Origin: an uncultured Clostridia bacterium
GTDB lineage: Bacteria; Bacillota; Clostridia; Christensenellales; Aristaeellaceae
Length of the DNA stretch: 38,716 bases
Reading direction: 5' to 3'
Assembly: GCA_946536315.1 (NCBI GenBank)
Contig: CAMNEH010000014.1
Coordinates: 1-38,716, forward strand
Made by a program: the position numbers and the translations under genes. The notes under the pieces are model-generated. The model did not search any database. It saw only the letters and a program-made list of their open reading frames with translations, and was not told the origin of the DNA. Below are positions 13,491 through 38,716 of this stretch, piece by piece. Numbering within the stretch: position 1 is the first letter of the stretch; the number at the start of each line of letters is the position of its first letter.

Positions 13491-13519
13491 ATTATACCGC
13501 GTTTACGATAAAGAATCAA
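13491..13519 (-). promoter_or_regulatory. SigA-type promoter of the exported hydrolase
   Basis: On the minus strand TTGATT (13514-13519) and a perfect TATAAT (13491-13496) are 17 bases apart. The -35 lies inside the last codons of the upstream sialidase-fold gene, so the hydrolase can be expressed apart from the glycan operon. Confidence 0.75.
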
Positions 13520-15284
13520 TATCCAGCCTGAACAGCCGAAATACGGCTTCCGGTCCGCGCTCCCCGGCTCGCGGAATATCGGGAAGGCAGACGTTTTTCA
13601 GTTCCGTCTCCATGGTGGGCCATTCCCGGCGCGGGCCTGTCCTGAGCACCAGGCGCTCCACCGTCCGGCAGGGCATCATGATCGGATAAACAGCCGGCTG
13701 CCCGCCATTCACGCCGGCCTTCACGCGCCCGGCGACGCAATCGACCTCCAGCGCCATGCGCTGCGTTTCGCCGTCACTGTAGGCCGCTATGGGCCATTGC
13801 CCGCCGCCGCCCCGTACCGCGGCCTGTCCGTCGGGCCGCAGCAGCAGCTTCACCGCCGTCATACCCCTGCTGTCCGTCACTTCGATCTGCAGCTCGCCGT
13901 GCGCGCTGCCTCCGGCGCTCAACTCAAGCAGCAGCCTCACGCGGGGCTGTTCCGGGAACACGCGGATCGCCTTCGCGGCATCACAGGGATCACTGTCCCG
14001 CAAGGTCAGGCTGCCATCCTCCAGGCGGACGGGGGCCCACAGTGGCGAATAGATATGCCAGCGCTCCGGCAGCACCCCCGGCATGTTGGCGTATACCTCG
14101 TGTACAGGGGCCGTTTCGCGCCATTCCACCTTCGCGGGCAGGCGGGTCACCCAGATATCCTCCTTGTTCATGGAATAGGTGAGCCATGTACTGCCATCCG
14201 GCGCGTCGTCATTGCCCGGCATGATGCACCGGACATAATTCGGACCCACGTTTTTGAGATAGCCGCCGTATCGGGTCGGCGGCACCTCGCCGCACACGCA
14301 GGTCAGATGGTCATAATGCAGTCCGTCGTCAGACACCGCCACAGCCAGCGGCCAGCGGTGCTGACCGTCCGGCGACGGGTTGCAGGCGATGCCCCACTGC
14401 CCGTTGCCCAGCCGGAACATGGCGCACTTGCCCATCGATGTGTACAGGCCGTCCATGCGTTCCGGTTCCGTCCAGGTCCGGCCGCCGTCACGGCTGATGG
14501 CCGTCAGGCCCATTTTGCCGATCACGCCGGTCTGTCCGTCCGGCAGGGCACAAAAGGAAGGCGCGCTGATATTCTTCAGCGGGAAAAACGCCTCATCGAG
14601 CCGTTCCTCCTCCCACCAGGCGCCATTCGCCAGACGGTCGGTGAGGACCGCGCGGCACGCCGCCACAAAATCGGGATCATCGCTGGTCTCATAGCCGAGA
14701 TAGGGAAAATGCTCCGGCTTCCAGCCCGCTTTTTCATTGACCCGCAGCACATAGATATCCCCCAGCCGCCCATCGTCGAAGATTCTGCGGACCACCCGGC
14801 CCATTCCATAGCCCGAATTGGGAGCAATGTGGATGCTGGGCGATACGCCGTGAAAGGTCATGGTCAGGAGCACATCGTTGGGCGCGCGATAGAAGCCCAT
14901 CCGGTGATGCACCACAGTCATAGCGTCTTTTTTCAGTTGTTCCGCCCCTTTGCCCCGGTACACGCCCGGCGGGACCGGGATTTCCGGAAACAGGATCCGG
15001 GGGAATTCCCAATGTATTCCGTCCTCGCTTTCCGTCAGCATGGCCCGGGCGAGGCCGTCGTGCTCATGCACCGGACTGGTCAGGTACATCAGGTGAAAGC
15101 GTCCGTGCCATCTGCAGAGCATCGGCGCGTGATTGTAAGTAAAGGGAAAGCCCTGGCCCAGCTCCGGATGCTCGCGGTTCGCGCGGAGCACCTGTATGCT
15201 GTGCGCGCCGATGACCGGCCGGAGCCCCCCGTCGTGAAAGCGGGTATCCGCGTTTTCCTCGCCGACATATCGAAACAGCGCCAT
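13503..15284 (-). CDS. Sialidase-fold (Asp-box beta-propeller) protein, likely carbohydrate-active
   Basis: The protein has 593 aa and no signal peptide. Propeller repeats are visible, such as GRFHLMYLTSP, ESEDGIHWEF, an Asp-box SRDGGRTWTEP and SDDGLHYDHL; the last 200 residues form a beta-rich domain (about 395-590). It is the last gene of the minus arm, 16 bases after the MGH1-like gene. The fold is shared by GH33 sialidases but also by several polysaccharide lyase families with BNR-type propellers, including enzymes acting on rhamnosyl-glucuronate links. I do not see the full arginine triad of true sialidases with confidence. Given the rhamnosidase-rich neighbourhood, a lyase or hydrolase of a plant-type glycan is as likely as a sialidase. 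Confidence 0.6.
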   Translation of the reverse strand: MALFRYVGEENADTRFHDGGLRPVIGAHSIQVLRANREHPELGQGFPFTYNHAPMLCRWHGRFHLMYLTSPVHEHDGLARAMLTESEDGIHWEFPRILFPEIPVPPGVYRGKGAEQLKKDAMTVVHHRMGFYRAPNDVLLTMTFHGVSPSIHIAPNSGYGMGRVVRRIFDDGRLGDIYVLRVNEKAGWKPEHFPYLGYETSDDPDFVAACRAVLTDRLANGAWWEEERLDEAFFPLKNISAPSFCALPDGQTGVIGKMGLTAISRDGGRTWTEPERMDGLYTSMGKCAMFRLGNGQWGIACNPSPDGQHRWPLAVAVSDDGLHYDHLTCVCGEVPPTRYGGYLKNVGPNYVRCIMPGNDDAPDGSTWLTYSMNKEDIWVTRLPAKVEWRETAPVHEVYANMPGVLPERWHIYSPLWAPVRLEDGSLTLRDSDPCDAAKAIRVFPEQPRVRLLLELSAGGSAHGELQIEVTDSRGMTAVKLLLRPDGQAAVRGGGGQWPIAAYSDGETQRMALEVDCVAGRVKAGVNGGQPAVYPIMMPCRTVERLVLRTGPRREWPTMETELKNVCLPDIPRAGERGPEAVFRLFRLDIDSLS

Positions 15285-15300
15285 ATGACCGCCGCCTTTC

Positions 15301-17460
15301 TTATTCAGCCATCAGTGTCACTGGGGCACTGCCGTCGCTATGACAGGCCTGTACCCCGTCCAGAAACACGGTATAGCCGGCCGGCAGCCCGGCATAGTGT
15401 TCCCCCGCCGTCCGCTGATAATATACCCCGATCTCATGCCCGCGGACCCACAGCCTGCGAAGTGCGAAATAATCCAGTCCCGTCCGCAGCGGATGAAACA
15501 CGACGCCCTGCGCTTCCGGCTCGATACCCGCAACATGGCGTATGATCAGGTCCGGATAGAAGGAATGCAGGTAATCCGCTTCCTCGCTCAGCGGCGCGCC
15601 CGTCCGGCTGTCGTAGAACTCCACCAGGTCCGGGGCCGTGTCCTCGCCGTCCGCAAAGTGCTCCGCGGTATACTCCGACAGATGCGCCCAGAAAGCATCG
15701 TCATACACATGGCCGAAGCGCTTCGACTGCCGGGCCAGGGCGTCCAGGGCGATGCCGGTGGTATAGGGCCAGGACGGCCCGTTCCACATGCAGCCGTGGG
15801 GGCCCTTGATTTTTTCCCCGCGCCAGCCGCCGTCGGACGAGAACACCGGGCAATCCGCGGCAGTGGAGGCAAAGCCCGAGCCCAGGGAAAAATAGTCAGG
15901 GCTCAGCAGGTATTCGAGGATATCTCGGTGCGCTTCCCCTGTGATGCCCGCCCACAGAGGATCGAACGCCACGATATTCCTGACATAGGCCTTCTCGTCC
16001 GTCTGCCAGTGCAGGTCATAGAAGCATCTGGACACCGGGTCCCACATCTTGTCCAGGATGTCGCGCCGGATCCGTTCCGCTTCCGTTTCAAAAAAGGCCG
16101 CGTCCGGGTCGCCCGTTTTCCGGCACAGAGCGGCCAGGCCCCGGAAATTCAGATACATGTACACCGACCGGTCCACGCGCTTCAGCGGCGTATATCCCTC
16201 CCGGGCCGGGCGGACCGTGTACGGAAAACAGTCGTCCGTAAAAAACCAGAAGCTGGGCTGATACTCCTTGCCGGTGAGGGCGTGGGTGAACTCGATCTGC
16301 AGGGAATCTCCCCGGCGTGAATGCTCATATACATGCCTGGCGTCCGTCTTATATGCGGACAGCACCTCCGCCACGAGCGCGGCGTCGTCATGAATCAGGT
16401 CGTACTGATACAGCGCCCAGGCCGCATAATGGGCATAGACCTTGTGAGAACCGTCCACCGCCGTGACGGCAAACATTCCTTCCTCATCGAGGCATCCCGC
16501 CAGCGCCCGCAGGGTATCCCGCGCCGCTGCGCCGCCCCGCAGCCAGCGCGCGTCTGACACCTGCAGCGGCACAGACAGAGGGATCAGACGGGGGAACTCC
16601 CAGCCCGAGGGCTGATAGGGCGTCTTGTCCATCCGATGGCCGCGTCCCTCATAGAAGCAGGGCCCCGGCAGCCTGCCCAGCCCGGGACAGGCCAGATTTT
16701 TCCGCAGAAGATACCACCGGTAATACCAGCACCTGGTCAGGCGGGCGTCGTCGCATTCCCAATCGGGCGCGTCGTCAAACCACGTTCTGTATGCCCGGGC
16801 CTGTTCATCCATCAGGGCTTCGCCGTTCCCCCGGCTCAGCGCCGCCTGAAGCCGGGCTTCCATAGCCGCTGTTTCTTCCCGCAGGCCCATGGCGGCAGCG
16901 ATCAGGAATTCCCGCCTTTCCCCCGGCGGCAGCGTCAGTCGGCCCTCCCGCCAGGGACCGCCGCATCGCATCAGCATCACCGGCGTGACACCATGGATCC
17001 GGCAGGGAAAGGCGTATGGCCGTCCCTCTTCTGCGCCATTTGGCAGCATGAGCTCCAGCGCAACCGGGTGGGAGGTGTGGTTTTCCCATATCTGCCAGGA
17101 CAGCGCCAGGTCGTCCCAGGTGATCAGCTTTCTTTCTGTCAGGGATACCCCGGCGTCATCGTAATCCAGCCGCGCCTCGTCGATCCGCCAGCGCATGCGC
17201 ACAGGCGAGAGCAGCCCATCCCTCCTGCCGGTCTGGCGAACGGAGAAGAGCAGCGGCAGGTTCATCTTATGGATAAAATCGGCCCTGCCGGAAAACCCCG
17301 GCGCTGGGTCCAGATAGTCCATCCACAGCCTTTTCCCGGTGGGTCCCAGCATCCAGCGGTCCGGATGCCCCGGCAGGGTGCGGTCCCAGGCTGACAGCAT
17401 GCCGGCGATATCCGGCCGTTCCCCGCCGCGTCCGGCAGGGACCTGCGCTTCAGGCTTCAC
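15301..17460 (-). CDS. (alpha/alpha)6-barrel glycosidase, MGH1/GH63-like
   Basis: The protein has 719 aa and a GTG start at 17460 that overlaps the stop of the previous gene (GTGA), so translation is probably coupled. The N-terminal 200 residues are beta-rich; from about 230 the protein is helical, with the barrel motifs WYYRWYLLRKN, EGRGHRMDKTPYQPSGWEFP and, late, KGPHGCMWNGPSWPYTTG, which is the hallmark of GH63, GH37 and mannosylglycerate hydrolase (MGH1)-type enzymes. The family acts by inversion on alpha-linked sugars. The substrate here is unknown; GH78 and GH106 partners suggest an alpha-linked sugar of the same glycan. No signal peptide is seen, so the enzyme is cytoplasmic. Confidence 0.72.
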   Translation of the reverse strand: MKPEAQVPAGRGGERPDIAGMLSAWDRTLPGHPDRWMLGPTGKRLWMDYLDPAPGFSGRADFIHKMNLPLLFSVRQTGRRDGLLSPVRMRWRIDEARLDYDDAGVSLTERKLITWDDLALSWQIWENHTSHPVALELMLPNGAEEGRPYAFPCRIHGVTPVMLMRCGGPWREGRLTLPPGERREFLIAAAMGLREETAAMEARLQAALSRGNGEALMDEQARAYRTWFDDAPDWECDDARLTRCWYYRWYLLRKNLACPGLGRLPGPCFYEGRGHRMDKTPYQPSGWEFPRLIPLSVPLQVSDARWLRGGAAARDTLRALAGCLDEEGMFAVTAVDGSHKVYAHYAAWALYQYDLIHDDAALVAEVLSAYKTDARHVYEHSRRGDSLQIEFTHALTGKEYQPSFWFFTDDCFPYTVRPAREGYTPLKRVDRSVYMYLNFRGLAALCRKTGDPDAAFFETEAERIRRDILDKMWDPVSRCFYDLHWQTDEKAYVRNIVAFDPLWAGITGEAHRDILEYLLSPDYFSLGSGFASTAADCPVFSSDGGWRGEKIKGPHGCMWNGPSWPYTTGIALDALARQSKRFGHVYDDAFWAHLSEYTAEHFADGEDTAPDLVEFYDSRTGAPLSEEADYLHSFYPDLIIRHVAGIEPEAQGVVFHPLRTGLDYFALRRLWVRGHEIGVYYQRTAGEHYAGLPAGYTVFLDGVQACHSDGSAPVTLMAE

Positions 17461-18770
17461 AGCGCCGCGGATGGGCCGGTCTTCAGGATCAGCACCCAGT
17501 CGTTCTGGTCACAGCGACGGTCCGGCGGCGCAAACCGCATCGTTTCCGCTGCAGGCGCCTTTCCGGCGTAGCTCCTTCCCCCGGAGACCGGATCCATCCA
17601 CCAGACCGCCGTCTCGCCCAGGATACGCGTATCCACCCCGAAGGGACGGCCCGTATAGCTGTAGACGCACAGCCCCCGAGCGGTTTTCAGCGCGAGGTTA
17701 TACTCATACCGTATCCCGTTGTTTCCCACCAGCAGGTCCTGCGCCGGCTGACCGGTCTGCCAGTCCATATCTTCCATCAGCCGCCGCGCATGGGTCATCT
17801 GCATACTGCCCGGATTGTGCAGCGCCTCCTGCCAGGTTTCAAACACGCCGAAGGCGCCGGGCTCGGTCCCGCGCCAGAACTGCATGATCGCATTGCTGCC
17901 GTAGGTAAACCCGGCGGCGCCTGCCAGCAGGGACCAGTAAGCATACCGGCGTACGTCGCGGGTCTGCCAGTAGGGCTGCGAAGGATCATGCAGGCCCTGC
18001 AGGATAAATTCATAGCTCGGCTCTCCGTCCAGCACCGGCCGGGGCGGGAGCAGGCCGCGGTCATGGGTCACGTAACGGTAATTATCTTCCCCCACAAACG
18101 CTTCCGCGTCGACCTTGTCATCCCACTGATTCAGCTTCATCTGGTCATACCGCCGGTGTCCGGACTGGAACAGGTGGAAGTCCAGCCAGTCCGCGTCCTG
18201 GAACCATTGGGAGGAGGAGCAGCGGCCGAAGGGATGGAAGCCGATCAGCTGGCGCGGGCACTTTTCCCGCAGACGGCGTCCGATATGCCGGAATTCCTCC
18301 GGTGCGTCCGAGCCGCGCACGTCGCCGCCCACCAGCCAGATCACATTTTCACAGTCGCCGAACCACTGGGCCAGAAAGTCGATATAAGGGTCGATGGCGC
18401 CTCCTGCGAGCTTGCCGGACGATACAAAATGGCCCCAGGACGGCAGCAGCGCCATGACGATGCCTCTGGCGGCCGCGGCGTCCACCAGGCTGCGCACCAT
18501 GGGCCAATAGGCCTCCGGGGCCGTATCCGGGTTCGGCCTGGCAAAATCATCGTCCAGCAACGCCGGGGAACCGGCGCGATTCCGGTAATCCGGGGTATGC
18601 ACCAGCGTCGCCTGTACGACCGTAAAGCCCTTAGCCGCCCGGTTGTCCAGATAGACCAGCGCCTCGTCCGGGGTCAGCTTCTGAAACAGCAGCCAGGCTG
18701 TATCGCCCAGCCAGAAAAAGGGCTTTCCGTCCCGCAGAAAATAGTGTCTGTCCTGTGTCAGCGTCAGCAT
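17457..18770 (-). CDS. GH140-like (DUF4038, apiosidase-like) glycoside hydrolase
   Basis: The protein has 437 aa. The N-terminus DGKPFFWLGDTAWLLFQKL is the hallmark of the DUF4038 apiosidase-like group, a TIM-barrel family. Candidate catalytic acids are Asp150 (LVGGDVRGSD) and Glu250 (VLDGEPSYE), the same spacing pattern as in GH140. Characterised GH140 enzymes release apiose from rhamnogalacturonan II side chains, but many DUF4038 proteins are untested. The ribosome binding site AGGAGG precedes ATG, 12 bases after the previous gene. No signal peptide is present. If it is a true apiosidase, it would be the strongest pointer in this locus to RG-II or to apiosylated plant glycosides. Confidence 0.75.
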   Translation of the reverse strand: MLTLTQDRHYFLRDGKPFFWLGDTAWLLFQKLTPDEALVYLDNRAAKGFTVVQATLVHTPDYRNRAGSPALLDDDFARPNPDTAPEAYWPMVRSLVDAAAARGIVMALLPSWGHFVSSGKLAGGAIDPYIDFLAQWFGDCENVIWLVGGDVRGSDAPEEFRHIGRRLREKCPRQLIGFHPFGRCSSSQWFQDADWLDFHLFQSGHRRYDQMKLNQWDDKVDAEAFVGEDNYRYVTHDRGLLPPRPVLDGEPSYEFILQGLHDPSQPYWQTRDVRRYAYWSLLAGAAGFTYGSNAIMQFWRGTEPGAFGVFETWQEALHNPGSMQMTHARRLMEDMDWQTGQPAQDLLVGNNGIRYEYNLALKTARGLCVYSYTGRPFGVDTRILGETAVWWMDPVSGGRSYAGKAPAAETMRFAPPDRRCDQNDWVLILKTGPSAAL

Positions 18771-18782
18771 GGATGACCTCCT

Positions 18783-19793
18783 TTATTTCTGCCATGGCGA
18801 GCTGCGCGCCACGGTGATGCAGCGGTATTCCGGGGAATAGGGAAACGTGGCGTCCCCGTCCGACGCCGGGCGACAGGCGCAGTAGAAATGATACAGAGCC
18901 CTGCCATCGTACAGGATGCCCGGCTTGTGCGCATGGATCTGATCCACAGATTTCCGGGTCCCGATGGTCAGAATCGGCACGGGGAATTTCGTCCAATTGC
19001 GAAGATCCGGGCTGACCGCCAGGCCCTCGCAGGCGGACAGGTTCCCCAGCCCGTAATAGTACATGACCCACTGACGCGCCCGGCTGTCATAAAACACCGC
19101 GGGATCGGAGGCAAAGACGCTGTCCCACGCCCCCGGCGTCACCGGCAGGACAGGATTGGCCGGATACCGCTGCCAGTGGAGCAGGTCCTCCGACGTCGCA
19201 AAGCCCGTCTGCTCGGTCCAGCCCTGTGCTGTTTCATCCGTCTTGGCGTTATAAAACAGGTAAAACAGGCCATCGTGCTCCAGCAGCCAGCCCTTGTAGA
19301 GCCCGCCGTGCTCCCAGGCCGCGCCATCCCGCCAGGAAAGGACCGGATCGCCGACGAAATGCCAGTCCAGCAGGTTTTCATCCTCGGTCCAGGCCAGGCC
19401 GATTTCCGCCGCCCCGGCCTCATAGCCCGTGCGCGGATAAGAATGATAGACCATCCAATACTTTCCAAACGCCTTTTTCAGCTTCCGGGGGCCGAAGAGA
19501 TCGTTTTCCATCAGCAGGCCCGTTCCGGCCATGCCGACCTGATCCCATGTCCGGTTGCCGCCGCGCGGGAGGATGACGCCCAGCTTTTCCCAGCACGTCA
19601 GGTCATCCGACACCGCCAGCCCCGTCTGGTAGCCGATCCCGTCAAAGCCGACAAACAGCAGATAATAGCGCCCGCGGTGCCAGAACGGCGTCGGGCAGTC
19701 AACCGCGTTGCGGTCGAATCGCCCTTCACAGCCGGTGCCGGTCAGCACCGGCTTGCCCCACTTGTAGGGGGTCAGCAAATGTTCGATATTCAT
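18783..19793 (-). CDS. Five-bladed beta-propeller glycosidase, GH43/GH130-like
   Basis: The protein has 336 aa. Repeated blades of the pattern acid-x-x-x-x-aromatic then YYLLF, YWMVY, FYLFY and WVMYY show a five-bladed propeller of the GH43/GH32/GH130/GH137 type. Candidate acids are Asp32 (AVDCPTPFW), the Glu in WEHGGLYKGW and the Asp in FASDPAVFYD. Typical substrates are arabinofuranosides, xylosides or fructosides, or phosphorolysis of mannosides in GH130; I cannot assign a family firmly. The ATG overlaps the stop of the GH106-like gene (ATGA). No signal peptide is present. Confidence 0.65.
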   Translation of the reverse strand: MNIEHLLTPYKWGKPVLTGTGCEGRFDRNAVDCPTPFWHRGRYYLLFVGFDGIGYQTGLAVSDDLTCWEKLGVILPRGGNRTWDQVGMAGTGLLMENDLFGPRKLKKAFGKYWMVYHSYPRTGYEAGAAEIGLAWTEDENLLDWHFVGDPVLSWRDGAAWEHGGLYKGWLLEHDGLFYLFYNAKTDETAQGWTEQTGFATSEDLLHWQRYPANPVLPVTPGAWDSVFASDPAVFYDSRARQWVMYYYGLGNLSACEGLAVSPDLRNWTKFPVPILTIGTRKSVDQIHAHKPGILYDGRALYHFYCACRPASDGDATFPYSPEYRCITVARSSPWQK

Positions 19794-22700
19794 GACTCCA
19801 ACTCCATCAGTTCAGTGGGCGAAAGCAGATAGCTCGGCCGCACCAGGTAATTGTCCGTCCACTCGTCGCCGGTCGTGCGGTACGCGTCCGGCCCGTACCA
19901 TTTGTAATTCGGGTTGGCGTTGTGCAGGGTGCCAAAGCCGTTGTACCGGCTGCCGCAGGCCAGGATCTCAATGCGATGGGGGCCCGGCGCCAGGCGCGGC
20001 AGTCTGACCCGCTGAGGCTGCCAGGCGATCTTGCCGGCTTCCTCGCCGTCCACAAAGACCGCCGCCACAGGCGAAGCCATGTGCGGGATGTGCAGCCAGG
20101 AGTTTTCGCGGGGCTGATCCAGCATGACCGTGAAGCGGTACCGCACGTTGCCGGTATAGAACGGCAGGCCCTGACGGGTCAGGTCATCCAGGGCCAGGAC
20201 GGACGGCGGATCCGTGAGCGTCAGGCGTGTGCCGGCGATCCGGACGCCAAAGTTTCCCAGCAGATACATCGCCTCCAGGTTGGTCCGCCGGGTAAGCGGC
20301 ACAATGAGGGTCAGCTCATTGTCTCCGGGGCGGACGTCCGGCAGCGGAAGGGTCCGGATCGCCTCGTCTACATACCATCCGTCAGGCCGACCCGCGACCG
20401 GTTCCCCATTCAGGCAGAGCGCCGCCTCTTCCGGCTGCTCCAGCGCAAGCCGAAGCCCGGAAAAGGCCCGCTCCGACCGGAAACGGAAGCGCAGTCTGGC
20501 CGTATGCGCCGCAGGCGTATGAGGAACCAGCCAGGGCTGTACCTGATTGCCATTGCGCTGTGGCAGTCCGGCCTGAGCGCGCAGGGCATTGTCCGCGCGC
20601 AGGATATCCTCCGGATCCTGCCACGGCCCGTCATCCAGCGCAACCGCGCAGCGGTCCAGCAGCAGGGCGTTGGGCTCGTCCAGCTCAAAATCGTCTGTCT
20701 CACGCAGCGTCAAGAAAGGCTGTGGGACAGTAGCCGTCAGCGGCTCCGGTGCGGCGCAGCAGCCGTAAACCAGGCGCAGGAGCAGGCTGTCCTGGGCGTC
20801 GCATGCCCAGCTGAACTCCGTGCTGCCTGCCCGCTGCGTACCGCCGAGCTCTCGGATCGTTCCGTCCAGCGCATTCATTCTCCACAGCCGCCACAGCCCC
20901 TTCAGCCGGACCGTATATACCCGGGGGCGCGCGGGGATCTCGTCGCGCACATGGCAGAGGAACAGAACATGCTCGTTTCCGTCCTCGCGCAGCTGATAGA
21001 ATACGTTGTCCGCCAGCCGTCCGGTGGCCCGGTTCCGGATCTCCACGTCGCGCAGCTCCTGCAGCGCTTCCAGCAGGGGCGCGCGTTCCATCGGCAGGCG
21101 GATCGCGCCGCTCCAGACAGGCCGGGCGTCGGCGGATGCCAGGCCGTCCACCAGGTCCGGCGCCTCGCCCAGGCAGATCAGCCTGCCTCCGGCCTGCCGG
21201 AAGGCCGACAGCCGTTCCAGGGTGGTGCGGCGGATGGTCCGGATGGGCGGGACGACCACCGCTTCATAGGCGCATTCACCGACCTGCAGCGGACAGCCGG
21301 CCTGCGGGCAGAGCCCCGGGAGCATGGACTCCGACAGATAATCATAGTCGATCCCGCCGTACAGCAGCCACTGCGCCAGGTTTTCAAACTGCTCGTCCAT
21401 CTGTTCCCGGCGCGTGAGCGTCTGACTGTTGGGCCCGAACAGCAGCCAGAAGGACTCGATGGGGTGCAGCACCGCCACGCGGGCCACTGCCCGGCCGCGC
21501 GTGAGCTGTGTATTGATCCGCGCAAAGTAATCCTCCAGGTAAGAATACTGCTGCCACCAGGGCGACTGCCAGCCGATGGCCGCGGGCCAGTCACGCTTGG
21601 CTTCGCCCCCCATGCTCATGAAGGCCAGGTGGTGCACCCGCGTCGTGACGCCCAACGCCGCCAGCCAGTCCCCCTGCAGCTTGTGCTGCCGGAACGTGAC
21701 ATCCCATTGCAGCACGCCGTACATTTCGCACACCAGGCCCTGACGGCCCTTCTGCCGTCGGACGGATTCGGCCTGTTTGACGGTGGTCAGCTCCAGCTGA
21801 CCCGCGAGAATGTCGATGCCCGGGAGCTGCTGGCTGCGGTACTGGCGCATCGTTTCCCCCAGCGCCAGCGTCTGGGAATACAGCGTCCGTTCGGACATGA
21901 AATGCCCGGTATACGCCATGCCGTGCGCTTCGCACCAGGCGCCGATCCGGTCGCCGTAAGCGGACGCGAACCGCTCCGTGACGTGCTCGTGATACCGGTA
22001 CCGCCATACGCTGGGGCCTGACCGAAGCTCCCAGATGAGCTCGGGCAGGATATCGGTCAGGGCGGTCCCGTACGCCTGACGGAACGTGTCGTCCATATCG
22101 TCCGTATAGGCCAGCCGGCCGCGTCCCGCCCGCGGGTCGGACATGCAGAATTTGCCCTCCATGCGCGGCTCATCCGTAAATATTGCCGGCACCGTGCGGC
22201 CGATATGGGGCTTCAACGCTTCATAGTACCGCTCGTGGGTGACGCGCAAAAAGGCGTCCACCGCCTCGGGATTGAAGACATCCACATAGGCCTCGCCATT
22301 GTACCACGGGCTCGGCGGCTGCAGTTGCACATACGCGTGGCAGTTCGCGTGATCTTCCGTTTTGGAATAGGACGCCAGAAACCCGTCGTCCCAGGTCAGG
22401 CGGTAGCCGCACAGAGCGTATCCCGCGGGCTTCTCCCCGCCGTCGATCCGGGCCTCAAACTCCTCCCGGCTGCCGCAGAAGCCCTCCAGCGGCTGCTCCG
22501 ACACCAGGATCCAGCGGGCGCGGTACCGGATGTTCCGGGTGACAATGCCGCCCGCCACGCCCGATGGAAAGCGCTCCTCGTCATAGAGCCAGCAGTCCAG
22601 GCCATTCTCTCTCAGCTGCTCTTCCGCATATGCCACCAGCGCCATATACTCGTCGGACAGGTACGGCGTATCCATCCCGGTTCTGGGATGCAGCATAACG

Positions 22701-22858: not shown

Positions 22859-22968
22859 CTGCGTTTCATTCCTTTCGTTGACGTGACGCCCTGTGCAAAA
22901 TCATTCTCTTCATATATTTTACATCAAAGTCGATTTTCCTTCTGTAAAAACATTAGCCGCCAAATAAA

Positions 22969-22990
22969 ATTTACTAAAATATTTGTAAAT
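22969..22990. promoter_or_regulatory. Candidate operator, near-palindrome
   Basis: ATTTAC at 22969-22974 and GTAAAT at 22985-22990 are exact inverted copies; over 22 bases, 18 positions match the palindrome. It lies 111 bases before the GH106-like start, where it could control the minus arm. Confidence 0.4.
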
Positions 22991-23060
22991 CTTAGCTGAA
23001 TGAAGCAAAACAACCGGACGTTGAATGAGTTTGATGTATTTTTATTGACCATTTCATCTA

Positions 23061-23089
23061 TTCTCATCTGAACGCTGTTGAGCTATAAT
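23061..23089 (+). promoter_or_regulatory. Candidate promoter of the ABC transporter operon
   Basis: TTCTCA (23061-23066) and a perfect TATAAT (23084-23089) are 17 bases apart. A start near 23096 would put the inverted pair at 23099-23133 directly downstream, a common repressor position. Confidence 0.55.
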
Positions 23090-23098
23090 ATAAACGTC

Positions 23099-23133
23099 AA
23101 CGATTTTTGTTCAGCTTTGTTTAGTAAATCGTT
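23099..23133. promoter_or_regulatory. Candidate LacI-type operator pair
   Basis: AACGATTT (23099-23106) and AAATCGTT (23126-23133) are exact inverted copies, each with the central CG common in LacI-family half sites, 19 bases apart. A LacI-type gene lies in this operon at 32077. Confidence 0.4.
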
Positions 23134-28311: not shown

Positions 28312-29735
28312 ACTGGACGATGGATTGGAGTCCCCTGCGTCACGACGCGCCGCAGTGGATGCGGGACGGCAAGTTCGGCCTGTTTTTCCACTGGGGCGTA
28401 TACAGCGTGCCCGCCTGCGAAAACGAGTGGTACTCCAGAAACATGTATCTGAAGGGCTGCAAGCAGAACCTGGAGCACGAGCGCAGGTTCGGCAAGCTGA
28501 GCGAATTCGGCTACAAGGACTTCATTCCGATGTTCAGGGCGGAGCATTTCGACCCCGACGCCTGGGCTGACCTAGTCAAGCTCAGCGGCGCCCGATACGC
28601 GGGACCGGTCACGGAGCATGCCGACAACTATTCGCTCTGGGACAGCAAGGTCAATCCCATCAACTCCGTCAAAACGGGGCCCCACCGGGATGTGGCCGGC
28701 GAGTGCGCCGCCGCCTTCCGTCGTCAGGGCATCAAATATCTCGCCACCTTCCATCATCAGTGGCTCTGGGGTTGGTTTATGTCCACGGACAACGAAGCGG
28801 ACGTTTACGACCCCGCCAATGAGATCTACTACGGCCCCGCCCTTCCGCTGGAAACCAACCGGTATATCCCCTACCGTCTGCCGGATCAAAAGTTCTGCGA
28901 CACCTGGCTGGAAAAGATCCGGGAGGTGTGCGAGCAGTACCGGCCCGATGTGCTGTACTTTGACGGGCGGGTGCTGATCCTGCCGGAGAAATATCGCTAT
29001 GCCGCCGCCAAGTGCTATTACGACGCCGTGCCGCAGGGCATCATCACCTACAAGCAGGAGGACTTTCCCAAGGGCCTGGGCGTATTCGATGTGGAATGCG
29101 GGCGTTTTGCCGATCAGCAGCCGTTTTTCTGGCAGACGGATGACCGGCTGGAGGACAGGATCACCTGGTGCATCGTACAGGAGCCCAAGTATAAGCCGGC
29201 CGGGCGGATCATTCAGCAGATCGCTGATGTGACCGCCAAAAACGGCTGCCTGGTGCTGAACGTGGGTCCGCAGGAGGACGGCACCTTCCATCCCGACGCC
29301 GTGCGCGAGCTGACCCGCATCGGCGAATGGCTGAGCGTGAACGGGGAAGCGATCTACTCTACCCGCCCCTTCGCCGTCGCCGGGGAAGGCGTGACGGTCG
29401 GCGCGAACGAAGACTACAATGTGGAACGTGTCAAGCAGCAGATGAAGGACGGCCTCGCCATCGAGAGCGGCCAGTACCGGCTGACCGGCGACGACGTGCG
29501 CTATACGCAGACGGATGAGGCAGTGTACGTGATCGGGTTTGGTCATCCCCACGACAATACCCTGCGCCTGCGCGCCCTCCGCGAGGGCGGCGCGCTGGGC
29601 GAGGTCCGCTCCGTCCGGATGCTGGGCAGCGACAGCCCCATCGAATACGTCCGGGATGCGGAACAGATGACGATTCGTCTGCCCGAGCGGCGGCCCTTCG
29701 AGGAGGGCTTTGCCCTCCGTCTGGACAGGAAGTAA
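28308..29735 (+). CDS. GH29 alpha-L-fucosidase
   Basis: The protein has 475 aa. GH29 landmarks in order are KFGLFFHWGVYSVPA (22-36), EHADNYSLWDSKVNP (103-117), YLATFHHQW and the nucleophile motif VLYFDGR (Asp219), then KNGCLVLNVGPQEDG. The enzyme removes alpha-linked L-fucose with retention. There is no signal peptide. It starts by ATGA overlap with the esterase gene and is 6 bases from the GH2 gene. Together with the isomerase-like gene downstream it supports fucose, or a related 6-deoxysugar, as one product of this locus. Related GH29 subgroups can also act on alpha-L-galactose, which occurs in RG-II. Confidence 0.9.
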   Translation: MNWTMDWSPLRHDAPQWMRDGKFGLFFHWGVYSVPACENEWYSRNMYLKGCKQNLEHERRFGKLSEFGYKDFIPMFRAEHFDPDAWADLVKLSGARYAGPVTEHADNYSLWDSKVNPINSVKTGPHRDVAGECAAAFRRQGIKYLATFHHQWLWGWFMSTDNEADVYDPANEIYYGPALPLETNRYIPYRLPDQKFCDTWLEKIREVCEQYRPDVLYFDGRVLILPEKYRYAAAKCYYDAVPQGIITYKQEDFPKGLGVFDVECGRFADQQPFFWQTDDRLEDRITWCIVQEPKYKPAGRIIQQIADVTAKNGCLVLNVGPQEDGTFHPDAVRELTRIGEWLSVNGEAIYSTRPFAVAGEGVTVGANEDYNVERVKQQMKDGLAIESGQYRLTGDDVRYTQTDEAVYVIGFGHPHDNTLRLRALREGGALGEVRSVRMLGSDSPIEYVRDAEQMTIRLPERRPFEEGFALRLDRK

Positions 29736-29741
29736 GCCCCG

Positions 29742-32024: not shown

Positions 32025-32076
32025 ACCATACCTGCCACGAAACACCATGAGACCTCCAGAAAAAGGGGAATGACCG

Positions 32077-33090
32077 ATGAAATATACGCTGCGGGACATT
32101 GCGAAACGCGCCAATGTCTCCCCCGCTACCGTCAGCAACGCGCTCAACGGACGCCCCGGCGTCAGCAAGTCCGTTCAGGAAACCATCATCGCCCTCGCCC
32201 ATGAAATGGGATACCAGCCGAGCCGGGAAAGCAACAGGGCCAGCCGCCACGTCCGCCTGATCATTTTCCGTTCCCACGGCATGGTGGTCATGGATACGCC
32301 GTTCTTTTCGGAGCTGATCGAAAGCATTCAGCTGGAATGCCACCGCATGGACCTCGAATTGTTCATCAGCCACATCAGCTCAAAGCTGGACAGCGATTAT
32401 CTGGACCAGATCAATGCGTTCCGTTCAGAGGAATGCGCCGGCATCATCCTGCTCGGCACGGAAATGAACGAAACAGAGCTGAAGCTGTACCGGAATTTCA
32501 GGTCCCCCATGGTCGTGCTGGACAACCTGTTCCGGATGGAGAATATCCATTCTGTGGTGATGAACAACTGGCAAGCCGGCTTTCTGGCCGCCGAAGCCCT
32601 GTTCGACGCCGGCCATCGCGACATTCAGCACATCACCAGCAGCATCAGCTTCAATAACATGACCGACCGCCAGCTGGGCCTGACGGCGGGGCTGGCCAGA
32701 CACGGCCTCCAGCTGGAGGACAGCATGATCTGGCCGGTCCAGCCGACCATGAACGGCGCCTACGAAGACATGAAGGCGCTGCTCCGCGCGGGGAAACCGC
32801 TGCCTGATGCCTTCTTCGCCGCCAACGACATCATGGCCATCGGCTGCATGCGGGCGATCCGGGAGGCGGGCTATCAGGTGCCCGACGACGTATCCATCAT
32901 CGGCATGGACGATACCGCCATCTGCCTGGCCTGCACGCCCCAGCTCAGCACTGTCCACGTATTCCGTCAGGAGCTCGGACGCACCGTCGTACGCACCCTG
33001 CTGACCCTGCCGCAGCAGCCGATGCCCTGCTGCATCAAAACCCAGGTCGGCGTCGAACTGGTGATGCGGGATTCCGTCAAATCAAAATAA
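32077..33090 (+). CDS. LacI-family transcription regulator
   Basis: The protein has 337 aa. The helix-turn-helix lies at residues 4-30 (LRDIAKRANVSPATVSNAL, then NGRPGVS), followed by the hinge helix and a sugar-binding PBP1-like domain (about 60-337) with FAANDIMAIGC and VSIIGMDDT, which are standard for the family. It very likely controls this locus in answer to a sugar released by the enzymes. Candidate operators with a central CG lie in the divergent region at 23099-23133. The gene sits between GH2 and GH42, so its product would be co-expressed with what it controls. AAAAGGGGAATG precedes the start. Confidence 0.93.
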   Translation: MKYTLRDIAKRANVSPATVSNALNGRPGVSKSVQETIIALAHEMGYQPSRESNRASRHVRLIIFRSHGMVVMDTPFFSELIESIQLECHRMDLELFISHISSKLDSDYLDQINAFRSEECAGIILLGTEMNETELKLYRNFRSPMVVLDNLFRMENIHSVVMNNWQAGFLAAEALFDAGHRDIQHITSSISFNNMTDRQLGLTAGLARHGLQLEDSMIWPVQPTMNGAYEDMKALLRAGKPLPDAFFAANDIMAIGCMRAIREAGYQVPDDVSIIGMDDTAICLACTPQLSTVHVFRQELGRTVVRTLLTLPQQPMPCCIKTQVGVELVMRDSVKSK

Positions 33091-33102
33091 AGGGGAATGA
33101 TA

Positions 33103-35136
33103 ATGAAACGAGCGGACCGGATCTACTATGGAGGAGATTACAACCCGGATCAGTGGGATGAAGCCACGCTGCAGGAGGATATGCGCCTGTTCAGAAAAGC
33201 GGGCATCAACCTGTTGACGCTTCCTGTGTTTTCATGGGCGAAGCTGGAGCCTGACGAGGGCGTGTACAACTTCGAATGGCTGGATCACATCCTCGATGTC
33301 ATCTGGCGCAACGGCATCCGCGTCTGTCTGGCGACGCCGACCACGGCCCAGCCGGCCTGGCTTTCCACCCGTTATCCCGAGGTCCTGCCTGTCGATATCC
33401 AGGGCAGAAAGCGCACCCACGGCATGCGCGTGTTTTTCTGCGTGAACAGCCTGAAATACCGGGAGCGCGCCGCGGCCATCGCGCACGAGTTCGGCCGGCG
33501 CTACGCCCATCATCCGGCCCTGGCGATGTGGCATGTGTCCAACGAATACGGCACCTCCTGCTACTGTCCCACCTGCCAGGCCCGGTTCCGCCTCTGGCTG
33601 CGCCGGCGTTACGGCAATGTCGACGGGCTGAACGAGCATTGGCACACCGCCTTCTGGGGCCGCACGGTCACATCCTTTGAAGAAGTCACGCTGCCGACGG
33701 AGCTGAATGACGACTACCGTTTCAATCCGGCCATCCAGCTGGACTATATGCGCTTCCTGACGGATTCGACCGTGGAGTGCTTCCGCAACGAATATGACGT
33801 CCTGAAAAGCTACAACCCCGAGATTCCCATACTGACCAACATGAGCGGCTTTATCAAAAAGCTGGACCAGTTCACCTTTACCCGCCAGATGGACGTGGTC
33901 GGGTGGGACAACTATCCCTGGCCGCAGGATCCGCCCCATTTCGTCGCCATGAAGCACGATATCATGCGCGGCCTGAAGGGCGGACAGTCCTTTGTGCTGA
34001 CGGAGCAGTCCCCCAACCAGCAGAACTGGCAGCCGTACAACAAGCTGAAGCGTCCCGGCGAGGTCCGCCTGCTGTCCTACCAGGCCATGGCCCACGGCGC
34101 GGATACCTGCCTCTTCTTTCAGATGCGCCAGTCCGTGGCCGGTCAGGAGAAATTCCACGGCGCCATCATCAGCCACGCCGGTCGTGACGATACGCGGGTC
34201 TTCCGGGAGGCCGAAACGCTCGGCCACGAGCTCGAACACCTGGGCGACGCCTTCCTGGAGGGCCGGACCCCCGCCAAAGCGGCCATCCTGATGGACTGGA
34301 ACAACTGGTGGGCGCTGGAGCTGTCCAGCGGGCCGAGCAAGGACATGGACTATCTGAAGACCCTCGCCCGGTACTATAAGCCCTTCCATGACCGCAACAT
34401 CGCGGTGGATTTTGTCAATCCCGCTGCGGATACCGATTACTCCGGCTATGCCCTGGTGGTGGCGCCGATGCTGTACATGACCAAGGCGGGCGTGGCCGAG
34501 CAGCTGACCGCCTATGTCCGCGACGGCGGCACGCTGGTGGCCACGGTCATGAGCGGCCTGGTGGATGAGAATGACCGCTGCGTATTCGGCGAGTATCCGG
34601 GCAAGCTGCGCGACGCGCTCGGCATCTGGGTGGAGGAGACCGACGCGCTGCGGCCGGACGAAAGCAACCGCATGATCGTGAACGGTCCCGTCCGCCTGCC
34701 TGCGGACAGCTATGGCTGCACCTTCCTCTGCGATCTGCTGCATGTCCGCGGCGCAGAGCCGCTGGCCGTTTACGGCGAGGATTTTTACGCCGGGATGCCA
34801 TGCGTCACGCGCAACGCCTTCGGAAAGGGCAAGGCCTATTACATCGGCACCCAGCCCGACGGGGCCTTCCTGTCGGATCTGCTGGAGGTGATCTGCGCGG
34901 ACACCGGCCTGAAGGGACTCTTCAACGCTGACCCGGGTGTGGAGATCACGCAGCGCGTCAATGACCGGGGCGTTACCTGCTTCGTCATCAATCACGGCCA
35001 GGAGCCCGCCCGGGTGGATTTCGGCGGCTGTGCGCTCAAGAGCCTGCTGACCGGTGAAACCGTCACCGGACAGGCGACGATTGCAGGCCGGGATGTGTGG
35101 GTACTGAGGGCGTCTCAGCCGGGAGGCCGCGAATGA
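33103..35136 (+). CDS. GH42 beta-galactosidase
   Basis: I chose ATG 33103 (AGGGG at 33091-33095, spacing 7) over ATG 33097, giving 677 aa. GH42 motifs are present: YYGGDYNPDQW (8-18), GINLLTLPVFSWAKLEP (34-50) and MWHVSNEYG with acid/base Glu148. Next to it is the zinc-type cluster CYCPTC (C153, C155, C158). The nucleophile is Glu301 in FVLTEQSP. The C-terminus carries the trimerisation and beta domains. It releases beta-linked galactose from short oligosaccharides in the cytoplasm. No signal peptide is seen. It ends in an ATGA overlap with the GH78 gene. Confidence 0.92.
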   Translation: MKRADRIYYGGDYNPDQWDEATLQEDMRLFRKAGINLLTLPVFSWAKLEPDEGVYNFEWLDHILDVIWRNGIRVCLATPTTAQPAWLSTRYPEVLPVDIQGRKRTHGMRVFFCVNSLKYRERAAAIAHEFGRRYAHHPALAMWHVSNEYGTSCYCPTCQARFRLWLRRRYGNVDGLNEHWHTAFWGRTVTSFEEVTLPTELNDDYRFNPAIQLDYMRFLTDSTVECFRNEYDVLKSYNPEIPILTNMSGFIKKLDQFTFTRQMDVVGWDNYPWPQDPPHFVAMKHDIMRGLKGGQSFVLTEQSPNQQNWQPYNKLKRPGEVRLLSYQAMAHGADTCLFFQMRQSVAGQEKFHGAIISHAGRDDTRVFREAETLGHELEHLGDAFLEGRTPAKAAILMDWNNWWALELSSGPSKDMDYLKTLARYYKPFHDRNIAVDFVNPAADTDYSGYALVVAPMLYMTKAGVAEQLTAYVRDGGTLVATVMSGLVDENDRCVFGEYPGKLRDALGIWVEETDALRPDESNRMIVNGPVRLPADSYGCTFLCDLLHVRGAEPLAVYGEDFYAGMPCVTRNAFGKGKAYYIGTQPDGAFLSDLLEVICADTGLKGLFNADPGVEITQRVNDRGVTCFVINHGQEPARVDFGGCALKSLLTGETVTGQATIAGRDVWVLRASQPGGRE

Positions 35137-37922
35137 TCCAGATTGAAAGCATCCTGTTCGATTACAGTCCCGTCCCGCCGGTGGGCGTGGAAACGCTGCC
35201 CAACCTGGGCTGGACGCTTGCGAGCGACGAGCGGAACGTGCGCCAGACCGCCTATCGGTGGCAGCTGGCGGACAACGACCGCTTCGAACGCTGTGTGTAT
35301 GACAGCGGACGCGTGGAAAGCGCCGAATCCGCGCATGTCCCCGTGCCGGAGCTTGCCCTACTGCCCTGCCGGAAGTACCATCTGCGCGCCATGGCCTGGA
35401 CCACTGCGGGCGTCACCGACTGGCGCAGCGCCTGCCTGATCACCGGCATGATCGGCAGACAGTGGCAGGGCCGCTTTATCACCGCGGAGCGCGAAAACGA
35501 CTGGGTCCAGTCCGGCGGCACGCTGCTGCGCACCGCCTGGCGCGTCGAAAAGCCCGTCCGCGAGGCCTTTGTCTGCGCGACCGCGCTGGGGCTGTACCAC
35601 CTGTATATCAACGGCGAGGCCGTCAATCATGAGAAGATGCTGCCTGGCTGGACCTCCTATCACGAGCACCTGTGCTATCAGACCTGGGAGGTCACCCGCC
35701 TGCTGAAGCAGGGAGAAAACGTTCTCGGCGCGCACCTGGGCGCTGGCTGGTACAAGGGAATGATGGGCTTCATTCACGAGCGCTGCATCTATGGCACGCG
35801 TACCGCCCTGCTGGCGCAGCTGACCCTGCGCTATGAGGACGGCACGGAGGACACCGTCGTGACCGACGAAAGCTGGCTGGGCTGCGCCTCTCCCGTCACC
35901 TTCTCAGAAATCTACGACGGCGAACGGTATGACGCGCGGCTGGCGCAGCCCGGCTGGAACGCGCCAGGGTTTACGCCCGCGCTCGGAGACGACCGGCCCG
36001 AGCCGCCCTTTACGCCGATCATCGATCGCATGAAGCAGAGCTACACCGACGAGGAGAAGAACGACCAGCGGCAATTTGCCCGGCAGTACCGGCCGGCGGA
36101 CACGCTGTGGCGCCCTGTCGGCACGGTGGCCTATCCGCTGACCGCCCTGAGCCCCCAGGCAGCGGCGCGCCCGGAAGTCGTCATGACGCTCCCTGTACGG
36201 GAGATCCTGACCACGCCCCGGGGCGAGACCGTGCTCGACTTCGGCCAGAACCTGACCGGCTATGTCCGGTTCACCGTACGCGGCCAGGCCGGCGCGCTGG
36301 CGCACCTGCGCTGCTTTGAAACCCTCGACGCGGACGGGAACGCTTATTTTGACAACCTGCGCGGCGCGCTCGCGGAGATCCGCTATCTCTGCCGGGACGA
36401 AAGCCCGGCCGTGTACGACGAGCTGTTCTCCTTCCAGGGCTTCCGCTACGCGCTGATCGAGGAGTGGCCGGAGGAGGTACGCGCGGAAGCCTTTACCGCC
36501 TGCGTCGTCCACTCCGAAATGCCGCAGACGGGCAGCTTTGCCTGCGCCGATCCGCTCGTCAACCGGCTGCAGCAGAACATTGAATGGAGCCTGCGGGGCA
36601 ATTTCCTGGATATTCCGACCGACTGCCCCCAGCGGGACGAGCGCATGGGCTGGACCGGGGACGCGCAGATCTTCTGCAGGACCGCGGCCTTCCTGCGCCA
36701 TACCTATCCGTTTTTCCGCAAGTGGCTGCGCGATGTGGCCATTGACCAGCGGGCATGCGGCGGCGGCGTGCCCCATATCGTGCCCAATCAGCTGCAGTAC
36801 GTGCAGGTGAATGACTGGCTGCTGGGCCAGGGCACCCATTCGGCGGCCGCCTGGGCCGACGTGGCCGTCATCCTGCCGTGGACGCTGTACCTGACCTACG
36901 GCGATACCGCTGTGCTGCGCGACCAGTTCGACAGCATGAAGGCCTGGATCGACTTCATGCGGGATCACGCGGTCGATGATATCTGGAACTACAAGCTCCA
37001 GTTCGGTGACTGGGTCGCCCTGGACGCCGCCGATGGCAGTTATTTCGGCGCCACGCCCAACGACCTGACCTGCACCGCTTACTATGCCTATTCCACCGGG
37101 CTGTTCGTCAAGGCGTGCCAGGTCCTGGGACGCACGGAACTGGCCCGGGAGTACGAAGCGCTCAGGCAGCGAATCATCCGGAAATTCCAGTCGACCTTCC
37201 TGGATGAGCGCGGCGTCATGAAGGTCCAGACCCAGACCGCCCATATCGTGGCCCTGTATTTCCGCCTGATCCCCCCGGAGGGCATCGCGGGGACGGCCGC
37301 CGGGCTCAGGCGGCTGCTGCGTCAGACCGGCGGTCACCTGGTCACCGGCTTCGTCGGCACGCCGTACTTCTGCCACGCGCTGAGCCAGAACGGCTGCGTC
37401 GACGAGGCCTACGATCTGCTCCTGAAGGAGGACTACCCTTCCTGGCTCTATGAGGTCAAGGCTGGCGCGACCACCATTTGGGAGCATTGGGACGGCCTGA
37501 AGCCCGACGGCACCATGTGGAGCCCGGACATGAACTCCTTCAATCATTACGCCTACGGGGCAGTCGGCGAATGGCTGTACCGGACCGTCGCCGGACTGGA
37601 AATTGACGAGCGTGCGCCGGGTTACGCCCATACGATCGTCTCTCCCAGGACCGGCCGCCGGCTTGACTGGGCGCAGGCGTCCTATGACAGCTCCTATGGC
37701 GCCGTAGCCTCCGCGTGGCGGCGCAGCGGCGATCAGATCACGCTCACCGTGACCGTCCCGGCCAACGCCACCGCCGCGATCGTCCTGGAGGAGGGCGCGC
37801 AGGCGCCGGAAAGCGAGCTGCCCTTTACCAAGAATCCCGCCGGATGCTGGCAGACCGAAACGGGCTCCGGCGTCTGGACTGTTGTCTATACCATCCAACC
37901 GCAGGATCATAAGGAGGTTTGA
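35133..37922 (+). CDS. GH78 alpha-L-rhamnosidase
   Basis: The protein has 929 aa, starting at ATG 35133, which overlaps the GH42 stop. It has the beta-sandwich N-domains, then the (alpha/alpha)6 barrel with DCPQRDERMGWTGDAQ (497-512; Asp502 and Glu503 in the acid motif) and GATTIWEHWDG with Glu784 as the probable general base. GH78 enzymes remove terminal alpha-L-rhamnose by inversion. With the GH106-like protein in the other arm, the locus has two unrelated rhamnosidase families, which suggests two rhamnose linkages in one substrate. No signal peptide is present. The isomerase-like gene follows after 2 bases. Confidence 0.93.
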   Translation: MIQIESILFDYSPVPPVGVETLPNLGWTLASDERNVRQTAYRWQLADNDRFERCVYDSGRVESAESAHVPVPELALLPCRKYHLRAMAWTTAGVTDWRSACLITGMIGRQWQGRFITAERENDWVQSGGTLLRTAWRVEKPVREAFVCATALGLYHLYINGEAVNHEKMLPGWTSYHEHLCYQTWEVTRLLKQGENVLGAHLGAGWYKGMMGFIHERCIYGTRTALLAQLTLRYEDGTEDTVVTDESWLGCASPVTFSEIYDGERYDARLAQPGWNAPGFTPALGDDRPEPPFTPIIDRMKQSYTDEEKNDQRQFARQYRPADTLWRPVGTVAYPLTALSPQAAARPEVVMTLPVREILTTPRGETVLDFGQNLTGYVRFTVRGQAGALAHLRCFETLDADGNAYFDNLRGALAEIRYLCRDESPAVYDELFSFQGFRYALIEEWPEEVRAEAFTACVVHSEMPQTGSFACADPLVNRLQQNIEWSLRGNFLDIPTDCPQRDERMGWTGDAQIFCRTAAFLRHTYPFFRKWLRDVAIDQRACGGGVPHIVPNQLQYVQVNDWLLGQGTHSAAAWADVAVILPWTLYLTYGDTAVLRDQFDSMKAWIDFMRDHAVDDIWNYKLQFGDWVALDAADGSYFGATPNDLTCTAYYAYSTGLFVKACQVLGRTELAREYEALRQRIIRKFQSTFLDERGVMKVQTQTAHIVALYFRLIPPEGIAGTAAGLRRLLRQTGGHLVTGFVGTPYFCHALSQNGCVDEAYDLLLKEDYPSWLYEVKAGATTIWEHWDGLKPDGTMWSPDMNSFNHYAYGAVGEWLYRTVAGLEIDERAPGYAHTIVSPRTGRRLDWAQASYDSSYGAVASAWRRSGDQITLTVTVPANATAAIVLEEGAQAPESELPFTKNPAGCWQTETGSGVWTVVYTIQPQDHKEV

Positions 37923-37924
37923 AC

Positions 37925-38716
37925 ATGAGCGCACAGATCAAACTGGGCTTCGCCCCTACCCGCCGGGCCATCTTCAGCGCGCCGGCCGCCGTGGAATACC
38001 GGAAGCTCACCGCCAGCCGTCTTCGGGAGCTGAACATCGACTTTGTGGACATTGACGACGTCAACGAAGAGGGCCTGCTCTATGACGACGCCGGCCTTGA
38101 GAAGATCATCGCCAAATTCCAGCAGGAAAAAGTCGACGGTCTGTTTTTACCGCACGCAAACTTCGGTACGGAATACGAATGCGCCAGGCTGGCCAAGGCG
38201 CTGAACGTCCCCGTTCTGCTGTGGGGACCGCGTGACGAGCGCCCGGATGCCAACGGCATGCGGCTGAGGGACAGCCAGTGCGGCCTGTTCGCCACCGGCA
38301 AGGTGCTGCGCCGCTTCCGCGTGCCGTTCACCTATATGAACAACTGCAATCTCGAGGACCCCGAATTCGAGCGCGGCATCCGGGATTTCCTGGCGGTGTG
38401 CAACGTCGTGCGGGTGTTCCGCCATACCCGCATCCTGCAGATCGGGCCCAGGCCCTTCGACTTCTGGAGCACCATGTGCAACGAGGGCGAGCTGCTTGAA
38501 AAATTCAACATCCAGCTCGCTCCCATCCCCCTGCCAGAGCTGTACGCCGAAATGCGGAAATGGCGGGAAGAACAGCGCGAGGTTCAGAAGGTCGTGGATT
38601 ACTGCAAGGCCAATATGACCTGCAAAATCGAGAACGAGTACCTGGCGCACGTGGCCGAGCTCAAGGTGGCCATGAAGTCCCTGGCGGACAAATACGGCTG
38701 CAACGCCATCGCCCTT
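37925..38716 (+). CDS. L-fucose/L-arabinose isomerase-like protein, cut by the window end
   Basis: The first 264 codons are present and still open at the window edge. AAGGAGG ends 6 bases before ATG 37925. The N-terminal part has a Rossmann-like layout (IKLGFAPTRRAIFS, KVDGLFLPHANFG) and then the fucose-isomerase-type stretch RPFDFWSTMCNEGELLEKFN, close to the equivalent region of FucI and related isomerases. Catalytic residues of the family lie further on and cannot be checked. A role in turning a released sugar (fucose, arabinose, rhamnose or another) into its ketose would suit its place as the first catabolic gene after the glycosidases. Confidence 0.75.
   Translation, partial: MSAQIKLGFAPTRRAIFSAPAAVEYRKLTASRLRELNIDFVDIDDVNEEGLLYDDAGLEKIIAKFQQEKVDGLFLPHANFGTEYECARLAKALNVPVLLWGPRDERPDANGMRLRDSQCGLFATGKVLRRFRVPFTYMNNCNLEDPEFERGIRDFLAVCNVVRVFRHTRILQIGPRPFDFWSTMCNEGELLEKFNIQLAPIPLPELYAEMRKWREEQREVQKVVDYCKANMTCKIENEYLAHVAELKVAMKSLADKYGCNAIAL

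Follow-up and report, generated by a model that had tools for sequence, protein, structure and literature searches.

Organization of the locus

The analysed window is an entire contig (C14) of 38,716 bases, belonging to a metagenome-assembled genome of 2.87 Mb with 83% completeness. It harbours two divergent operons, running from 22,858 to 13,503 on the minus strand and from 23,160 to 38,716 on the plus strand, which meet at 22,859–23,159. From the promoter outward, the minus operon encodes GH106-like, GH137, GH140, GH142-like and GH143 proteins, while the plus operon is formed from the genes of LplB, LplC, a binding protein, a SASA esterase, GH29, GH2, LacI, GH42, GH78 and a partial isomerase, successively. 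All genes listed in a first-pass annotation of this DNA are present in these positions as long, adjacent open frames, and its family labels for GH29, GH2, GH42, GH78, GH140, the SASA esterase and LacI hold in Pfam.

Two further genes of the window were noted. A large hybrid sensor kinase with PAS, HisKA, HATPase and receiver domains (6,234–9,629) has no evident tie to the glycan locus. An S15/X-Pro dipeptidyl-peptidase-like protein with a signal-like N-terminus (11,330–13,519) adjoins GH143, and a homologue (59%) adjoins GH140 in the related genome G015, in the opposite orientation. The S15 peptidase was rejected as a part of the operon core, as none is located downstream of GH143 in the related loci L014–L016.

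Enzymes of the minus operon

The GH143 protein (13,503–15,284, minus strand) possesses no signal peptide and matches PF24067 (E 7e-79). Over its whole length (query 5–587 to chain 29–607, E 1.9e-126) it is aligned with the N-terminal half of BT1020, which we take to be the protein of structure 5mqr (chain A), the names in the PDB table being different. By sequence it is a DHA hydrolase homologue. The neighbouring GH142-like gene (15,301–17,460, minus strand) encodes a beta-L-arabinofuranosidase homologue corresponding to the C-terminal half of BT1020. The single sequence matches 5mqr_A from residues 432–710 to 823–1097 (E 5e-14), and a profile of five orthologues matches it from 209–695 to 648–1096 (E 2.7e-24). 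The same profile is nearly as near to 6m5a, a beta-L-arabinobiosidase (E 1.6e-21); since this match almost equals that to the C-terminal half of BT1020, “GH142-like” is the safe wording. As the GH143 and GH142-like proteins match its two halves, one Bacteroides protein is represented here by two genes.

The GH140 apiosidase homologue (17,457–18,770, minus strand) matches the Pfam family Apiosidase (E 4e-92) and, over its full length, the structures 3kzs/5msy (E 2.5e-87), the latter presumably a BT1012-type GH140 under another name in the PDB table; its match to the apiosidase 8t9w is weaker (E 7e-59). The GH137 beta-L-arabinofuranosidase homologue (18,783–19,793, minus strand) was recognised by NF049877 (E 1e-38) and by 5mt2/5muj (E 1.1e-28, residues 4–312 to 39–356), which indicates homology to the N-terminal domain of BT0996, presumably the protein of 5mt2, whose PDB table name likewise differs. 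The enzymes first called GH43-like, MGH1-like and sialidase-fold are thus present, with labels refined to GH137, GH142-like and GH143 (5mt2 and the two halves of 5mqr). It had also been considered that the enzymes might fall into subfamilies for unrelated glycans; instead, GH143, GH142-like, GH137 and GH140 find their matches among RG-II enzymes of solved structure.

The label GH106, given earlier to the largest protein of this operon (19,790–22,858, minus strand), stands in part. The protein matches NF049897, the NCBIfam model of BT4145 (E 1e-10), whereas PF17132 is matched at E of about 2e-4 in all four orthologues, with 20.3 bits against a Pfam cut-off of 29. Because this score is below the curated cut-off, the protein is kept out of GH106 proper and described as a divergent GH106-like protein, a candidate rhamnosidase for the Rha-apiose linkage. 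Neither the single sequence nor a profile gave a PDB match, and an AlphaFold2 model computed with four close orthologues (mean pLDDT 36) was unusable.

Transporter, enzymes and regulator of the plus operon

All genes described in this section lie on the plus strand. The first two encode ABC permeases matching PF00528, one of LplB type (23,160–24,131, E 3.5e-17; 90–92% identity in related loci) and one of LplC type (24,144–25,058, E 2e-10; 90–94%). They are followed by an extracellular substrate-binding protein of LplA-like size (25,122–26,810), whose hydrophobic N-terminus (KD 2.84) indicates a signal peptide and whose full-length orthologues in G041 and G015 are 92.5–93% identical. Of the LplABC-type transporter proposed at first, the two permeases are accordingly of the LplB/C type, and the binding protein has its signal peptide but matches no Pfam or NCBIfam model.

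The enzymes of this operon are (i) a SASA-family acetylesterase (26,914–28,311, PF03629 E 3.4e-42), candidate for the O-acetyl groups of RG-II chain B; (ii) a GH29 fucosidase (28,308–29,735, PF01120 E 6.6e-81), candidate 2-O-methyl-L-fucosidase; (iii) a GH2 enzyme (29,742–32,024, PF02836 E 1e-24; about 324 bits against the GalA/GalB models, below their cut-off), candidate beta-galactosidase for Gal-aceric acid or arabinopyranosidase; (iv) a GH42 enzyme (33,097–35,136, PF02449 E 5e-142), candidate arabinopyranosidase or beta-galactosidase; (v) a GH78 alpha-L-rhamnosidase (35,097–37,922, PF17389 E 3e-115). We infer the order of roles among GH2, GH42 and GH78 as well as the role of the SASA esterase. 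The last gene, cut by the contig end (37,919–38,716), is the 5' part of a FucI/SftI-like sugar isomerase (NF048012 E 1e-13), a candidate apiose isomerase. The window holds its first 266 codons, and the orthologues in G040–G042 are full-length proteins of 474 aa with about 92% identity.

A LacI-type regulator (32,077–33,090, PF00356 E 3e-13, PF13377 E 6e-31) is encoded between GH2 and GH42. Alignment of the divergent promoter region (22,859–23,159) from five species revealed TTTACTAAA/TTTAGTAAA half-sites, which form the perfect palindrome CAGTAAAATTTTACTG in two of the five species and are degenerate in the window. The TTTACTAAA-type half-sites are a candidate LacI operator.

Catabolic genes beyond the contig

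The genes to the right of the window, to which the first-pass annotation had pointed, are absent from this assembly because the window is the whole contig, and they were seen instead in the continued operon of relatives. In G040–G042 and G015 the operon runs on beyond the isomerase with genes for a split transketolase, an FGGY kinase, GH127, a four-carbon-acid kinase and BKACE; the isomerase, the FGGY kinase and the split transketolase are present in all four genomes. Another contig of the window's genome (C118, locus L120, 2,035–7,665) carries GH127, the four-carbon-acid kinase and BKACE in the relatives' order, with 82%, 72% and 87% identity; an iron-containing alcohol dehydrogenase comes after BKACE, and a GH30 lies beyond it on the opposite strand. 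A search of the 83%-complete assembly detected no orthologues of the transketolase and kinase; both seem to lie in a stretch that the assembly leaves out, with a size of about 4 kb as estimated from the relatives.

The C118 GH127 matches 5mqo, the aceric-acid hydrolase structure, which we assume to be BT1003 although the PDB table names differ, with E 1e-154, far ahead of other GH127s. Its G042 orthologue reaches 740 bits against the NF049879 equivalog cut-off of 950. The enzyme is therefore predicted to be of the aceric-acid-hydrolase type, BT1003-like in function, with no claim to membership of the NF049879 equivalog. The adjoining four-carbon-acid kinase, BKACE and iron alcohol dehydrogenase possibly serve the catabolism of aceric acid or DHA.

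A cluster of E. coli SE15 with AptA, AptB and AplK supports growth on apiose (PMC13001218). The split transketolase and FGGY kinase of the relatives share 37–41% identity with these three proteins, a further transketolase half of the genome is no less similar, and the FGGY kinase also passes the glycerol-kinase subfamily cut-off. For these reasons the apiose assignment is based on the gene set and on its neighbourhood in an apiosidase locus.

Conservation in related genomes

The block is kept, together with its gene order, in five related genomes (G040, G041, G042, G015 and G045), with losses in G015 and G045; the carriers are Clostridia from the rumen and from herbivores. In L014, L015 and L016 (G040, G041 and G042, respectively) the order and orientation of GH106-like, GH137, GH140, GH142, GH143, LplB, LplC and the binding protein are retained, and the plus operon continues identically. 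The block of G015, a member of the same family, has neither GH142 nor GH143, and that of G045 is in pieces, without GH142 and with GH140 directly followed by GH143. Among 391 genomes sampled class-wide, GH143 was above the cut-off in four. Since the block and its gene order are kept in five relatives and GH143 is rare in the class, the arrangement is not a matter of chance. The identity to the related loci is 90–95% for the transporter parts and 65–88% for the enzymes; the transporter and binding protein being the most conserved parts, one constant ligand is suggested.

Recent transfer from Bacteroidota was considered and is unsupported, as the GH143 tree (midpoint root, long branches, quick method) sets a Clostridia clade outside the 69 Bacteroidota sequences. 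Diverged GH143 genes (41%) were also observed in the same family in L010 and L011 (G015 and G014), where they adjoin distantly related GH106-like genes, to which G014 adds a transporter. They probably represent a different RG-II-related locus.

The chain D pair, GH142 and GH143, is missing from the G015 block. The Clostridia locus L017 and the Paenibacillus piri locus L054 share with the window the LplBC permeases, a GH142-like gene and a GH143 without signal peptide; in both loci the pair has its own transporter, and its neighbourhood is free of chain B enzymes. Judging from these gene arrangements, the chain D pair is a separable module. Unlike the window, L017 carries a DapA-family aldolase with PdxA, and L054 a DapA-family aldolase with an iron alcohol dehydrogenase. 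A DapA-family aldolase, an iron alcohol dehydrogenase, a four-carbon-acid kinase and a PdxA homologue were likewise observed near GH143 in nine Bacteroidota loci (L021, L024, L026, L043, L048, L063, L077, L081 and L084), and part of the set in L017, L053, L054, L064 and L079. This set is a candidate for DHA catabolism, with a split to pyruvate and a four-carbon acid.

Location of the enzymes and release of the side chains

According to the N-terminal hydrophobicity rule used here for signal peptides, none of the enzymes of the locus has a hydrophobic N-terminus, in agreement with the earlier remark that they lack signal peptides; the binding protein and the adjoining S15 protein have one. A signal peptide was found in at least 66 of the 69 Bacteroidota GH143 proteins (by eye also in two others, with one left undecided) and in 0 of 14 sequences from Clostridia, Chloroflexota and Paenibacillus. 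Omp85 was not found in the window's genome by a search that matched in diderm controls. The enzymes might get to the surface by a route that needs no classical signal peptide, so that RG-II would be digested outside and mono- or disaccharides imported. Hydrophobicity is the one measure by which signal peptides were judged, and as far as sequence can tell, non-classical export is conceivable; the missing N-terminal hydrophobic stretch in all locus enzymes and in 14 of 14 non-Bacteroidota GH143s, when the binding and S15 proteins possess one, makes surface digestion highly improbable.

How the side chains would be released is a separate matter. No member of PL1 was detected in six carriers, the GH28 inspected in the window's genome shows no recognisable signal peptide, and among cultured rumen isolates RG-II utilisation loci have been reported from Bacteroidetes only (PMC6118326). 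Cross-feeding on RG-II fragments released by Bacteroidota is plausible. In a stricter version of the import-first reading, the cell would scavenge only short fragments released in this way and its enzymes would act on trimmed pieces. Such scavenging is a real possibility, falling somewhat short of even odds: the enzyme set reaches from GH137, for the outermost Araf of chain B, to GH140, for the apiose attached to the backbone, and would be superfluous for trimmed pieces.

Substrate and proposed route

Aceric acid and DHA are sugars of RG-II, whose linkage details are in part general knowledge. To our knowledge, no substrate outside RG-II has been described for GH143, GH142, GH137 or GH127 of the aceric-acid-hydrolase type. 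The linkage details applied here were taken from PMC12282258, PMC12168206 and PMC11739564. RG-II carries its chains A and B on apiose-rhamnose, its chain D consists of Araf-DHA, and 2-O-methyl-fucose is a constituent of chain B (PMC12282258); BT0993, a GH2 enzyme, cuts Gal-beta-1,2-aceric acid (PMC11739564). In a co-occurrence study, GH137, GH138, GH139, GH141, GH142 and GH143 were grouped as RG-II debranching families, found mainly in Bacteroidetes (PMC7922503).

The enzyme set of the locus appears to account for almost every linkage of chain B, and for chain D too; chain A is not clearly covered (GH95 being patchy). Another apiose- or rhamnose-bearing plant compound, such as apiosylated or rhamnosylated glycosides, RG-I side chains or gums, might be degraded by re-used RG-II families. 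GH78, GH42, GH2, GH29 and GH106 are indeed broad families, and the solved GH140 homologue 8t9w is named “Apiosidase” only. However, GH143, GH142, GH137 and the aceric-acid-hydrolase-type GH127 occur together, and the GH140 of the locus is nearer to 5msy than to 8t9w, which leaves this explanation unlikely. The “similar glycan” that the first-pass annotation allowed beside RG-II has likewise become unlikely with a set that specifically matches chains B and D; its proposal that a Gram-positive-type cell would use RG-II by importing it before digestion gains support from RG-II families without signal peptides beside an LplBC-type transporter.

One linkage of chain B calls for separate consideration. 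According to a 2025 study, no family other than GH139 is known to release alpha-1,2-linked 2-O-methyl-fucose, and GH29 is said to act on unmethylated fucose only (PMC12282258). GH139, with the structures 9HYQ and 9HMB, was searched as PF18961, whose link to these structures was confirmed via a Bacteroidota homologue. It was above the cut-off in none of ten carriers and relatives, and a control genome matched; the absence is weakened by the 83% completeness of the window's genome, though the relatives agree. Because GH139 is absent from the ten genomes, the GH29 of the operon is the candidate 2-O-methyl-L-fucosidase, a prediction rather than a deduction in view of the activity reported for GH29. 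GH95, considered as the enzyme for MeFuc or L-galactose, was rejected, being patchy (four of six genomes) and located outside the locus.

The RG-II families without signal peptides, the LplBC transporter, the arrangement kept in relatives and the lack of Omp85 all argue for import before digestion. The locus is best read as an import-first system for RG-II side chains, mainly chain B with its acetyls and apiose, together with chain D (probability about 0.8). The binding protein and LplBC permease would import a side-chain oligosaccharide, from which GH137 would remove the terminal beta-Araf inside the cell, GH78 the Rha, GH42 and GH2 the Arap and Gal, GH29 the 2-O-methyl-fucose, and the GH127 of contig C118 the aceric acid. 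The GH106-like enzyme would cut Rha from apiose and GH140 apiose from GalA, with the SASA esterase taking off acetyl groups and GH142 and GH143 dismantling the Araf-DHA of chain D. Apiose would probably be consumed via the isomerase, kinase and split transketolase, as deduced from the loci of relatives, and LacI would control the divergent promoters. We infer the intact side chain as ligand, the exact linkage of each enzyme, the apiose catabolism in this organism and the regulation. A complete cytoplasmic route for chain B is proposed more tentatively, as the less probable case; in it the acetylated and methylated chain would be imported with its apiose, GH29 would stand in for GH139, and a dedicated pathway would consume apiose as well as the rare acid sugars (aceric acid or DHA), these acids via the four-carbon-acid kinase, BKACE and iron alcohol dehydrogenase.

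In earlier descriptions the breakdown of RG-II is a capacity of Bacteroidota, and a literature search, in a collection without most subscription journals, turned up no paper on an import-first RG-II locus in a Gram-positive bacterium. Such a locus would alter the view of RG-II users in rumen and gut. It predicts a new activity for GH29 and would link three rare sugars, apiose, aceric acid and DHA, with candidate genes for their catabolism which, as far as found, are unassigned in such a setting.

Comparison with known systems

The RG-II loci of B. thetaiotaomicron (BT1020, BT1012, BT0996, BT1003, BT0984 and others) share with this locus homologues of GH143, GH142, GH140, GH137, GH127, GH2, GH78 and GH106 type. 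The differences relate to the enzymes without signal peptides, the LplBC-type ABC import, the LacI regulator, the separate genes of GH143 and GH142, the lack of GH139, and the presence of GH29 and GH42 in the operon. With the D-apiose cluster of E. coli SE15 (PMC13001218), the loci of the relatives have the split transketolase and FGGY kinase in common. In contrast to SE15, a FucI/SftI-like isomerase replaces the two oxidoreductases, and the genes are located inside an RG-II locus with an apiosidase.

Import-first pectin loci are known from Gram-positive bacteria, an example being the RG-I uptake system YtcQ-YteP-YtcP of Bacillus subtilis. An LplABC-type importer and cytoplasmic glycosidases are common to these loci and the window, whereas the enzyme families are those of RG-I in the former and of RG-II in the latter.
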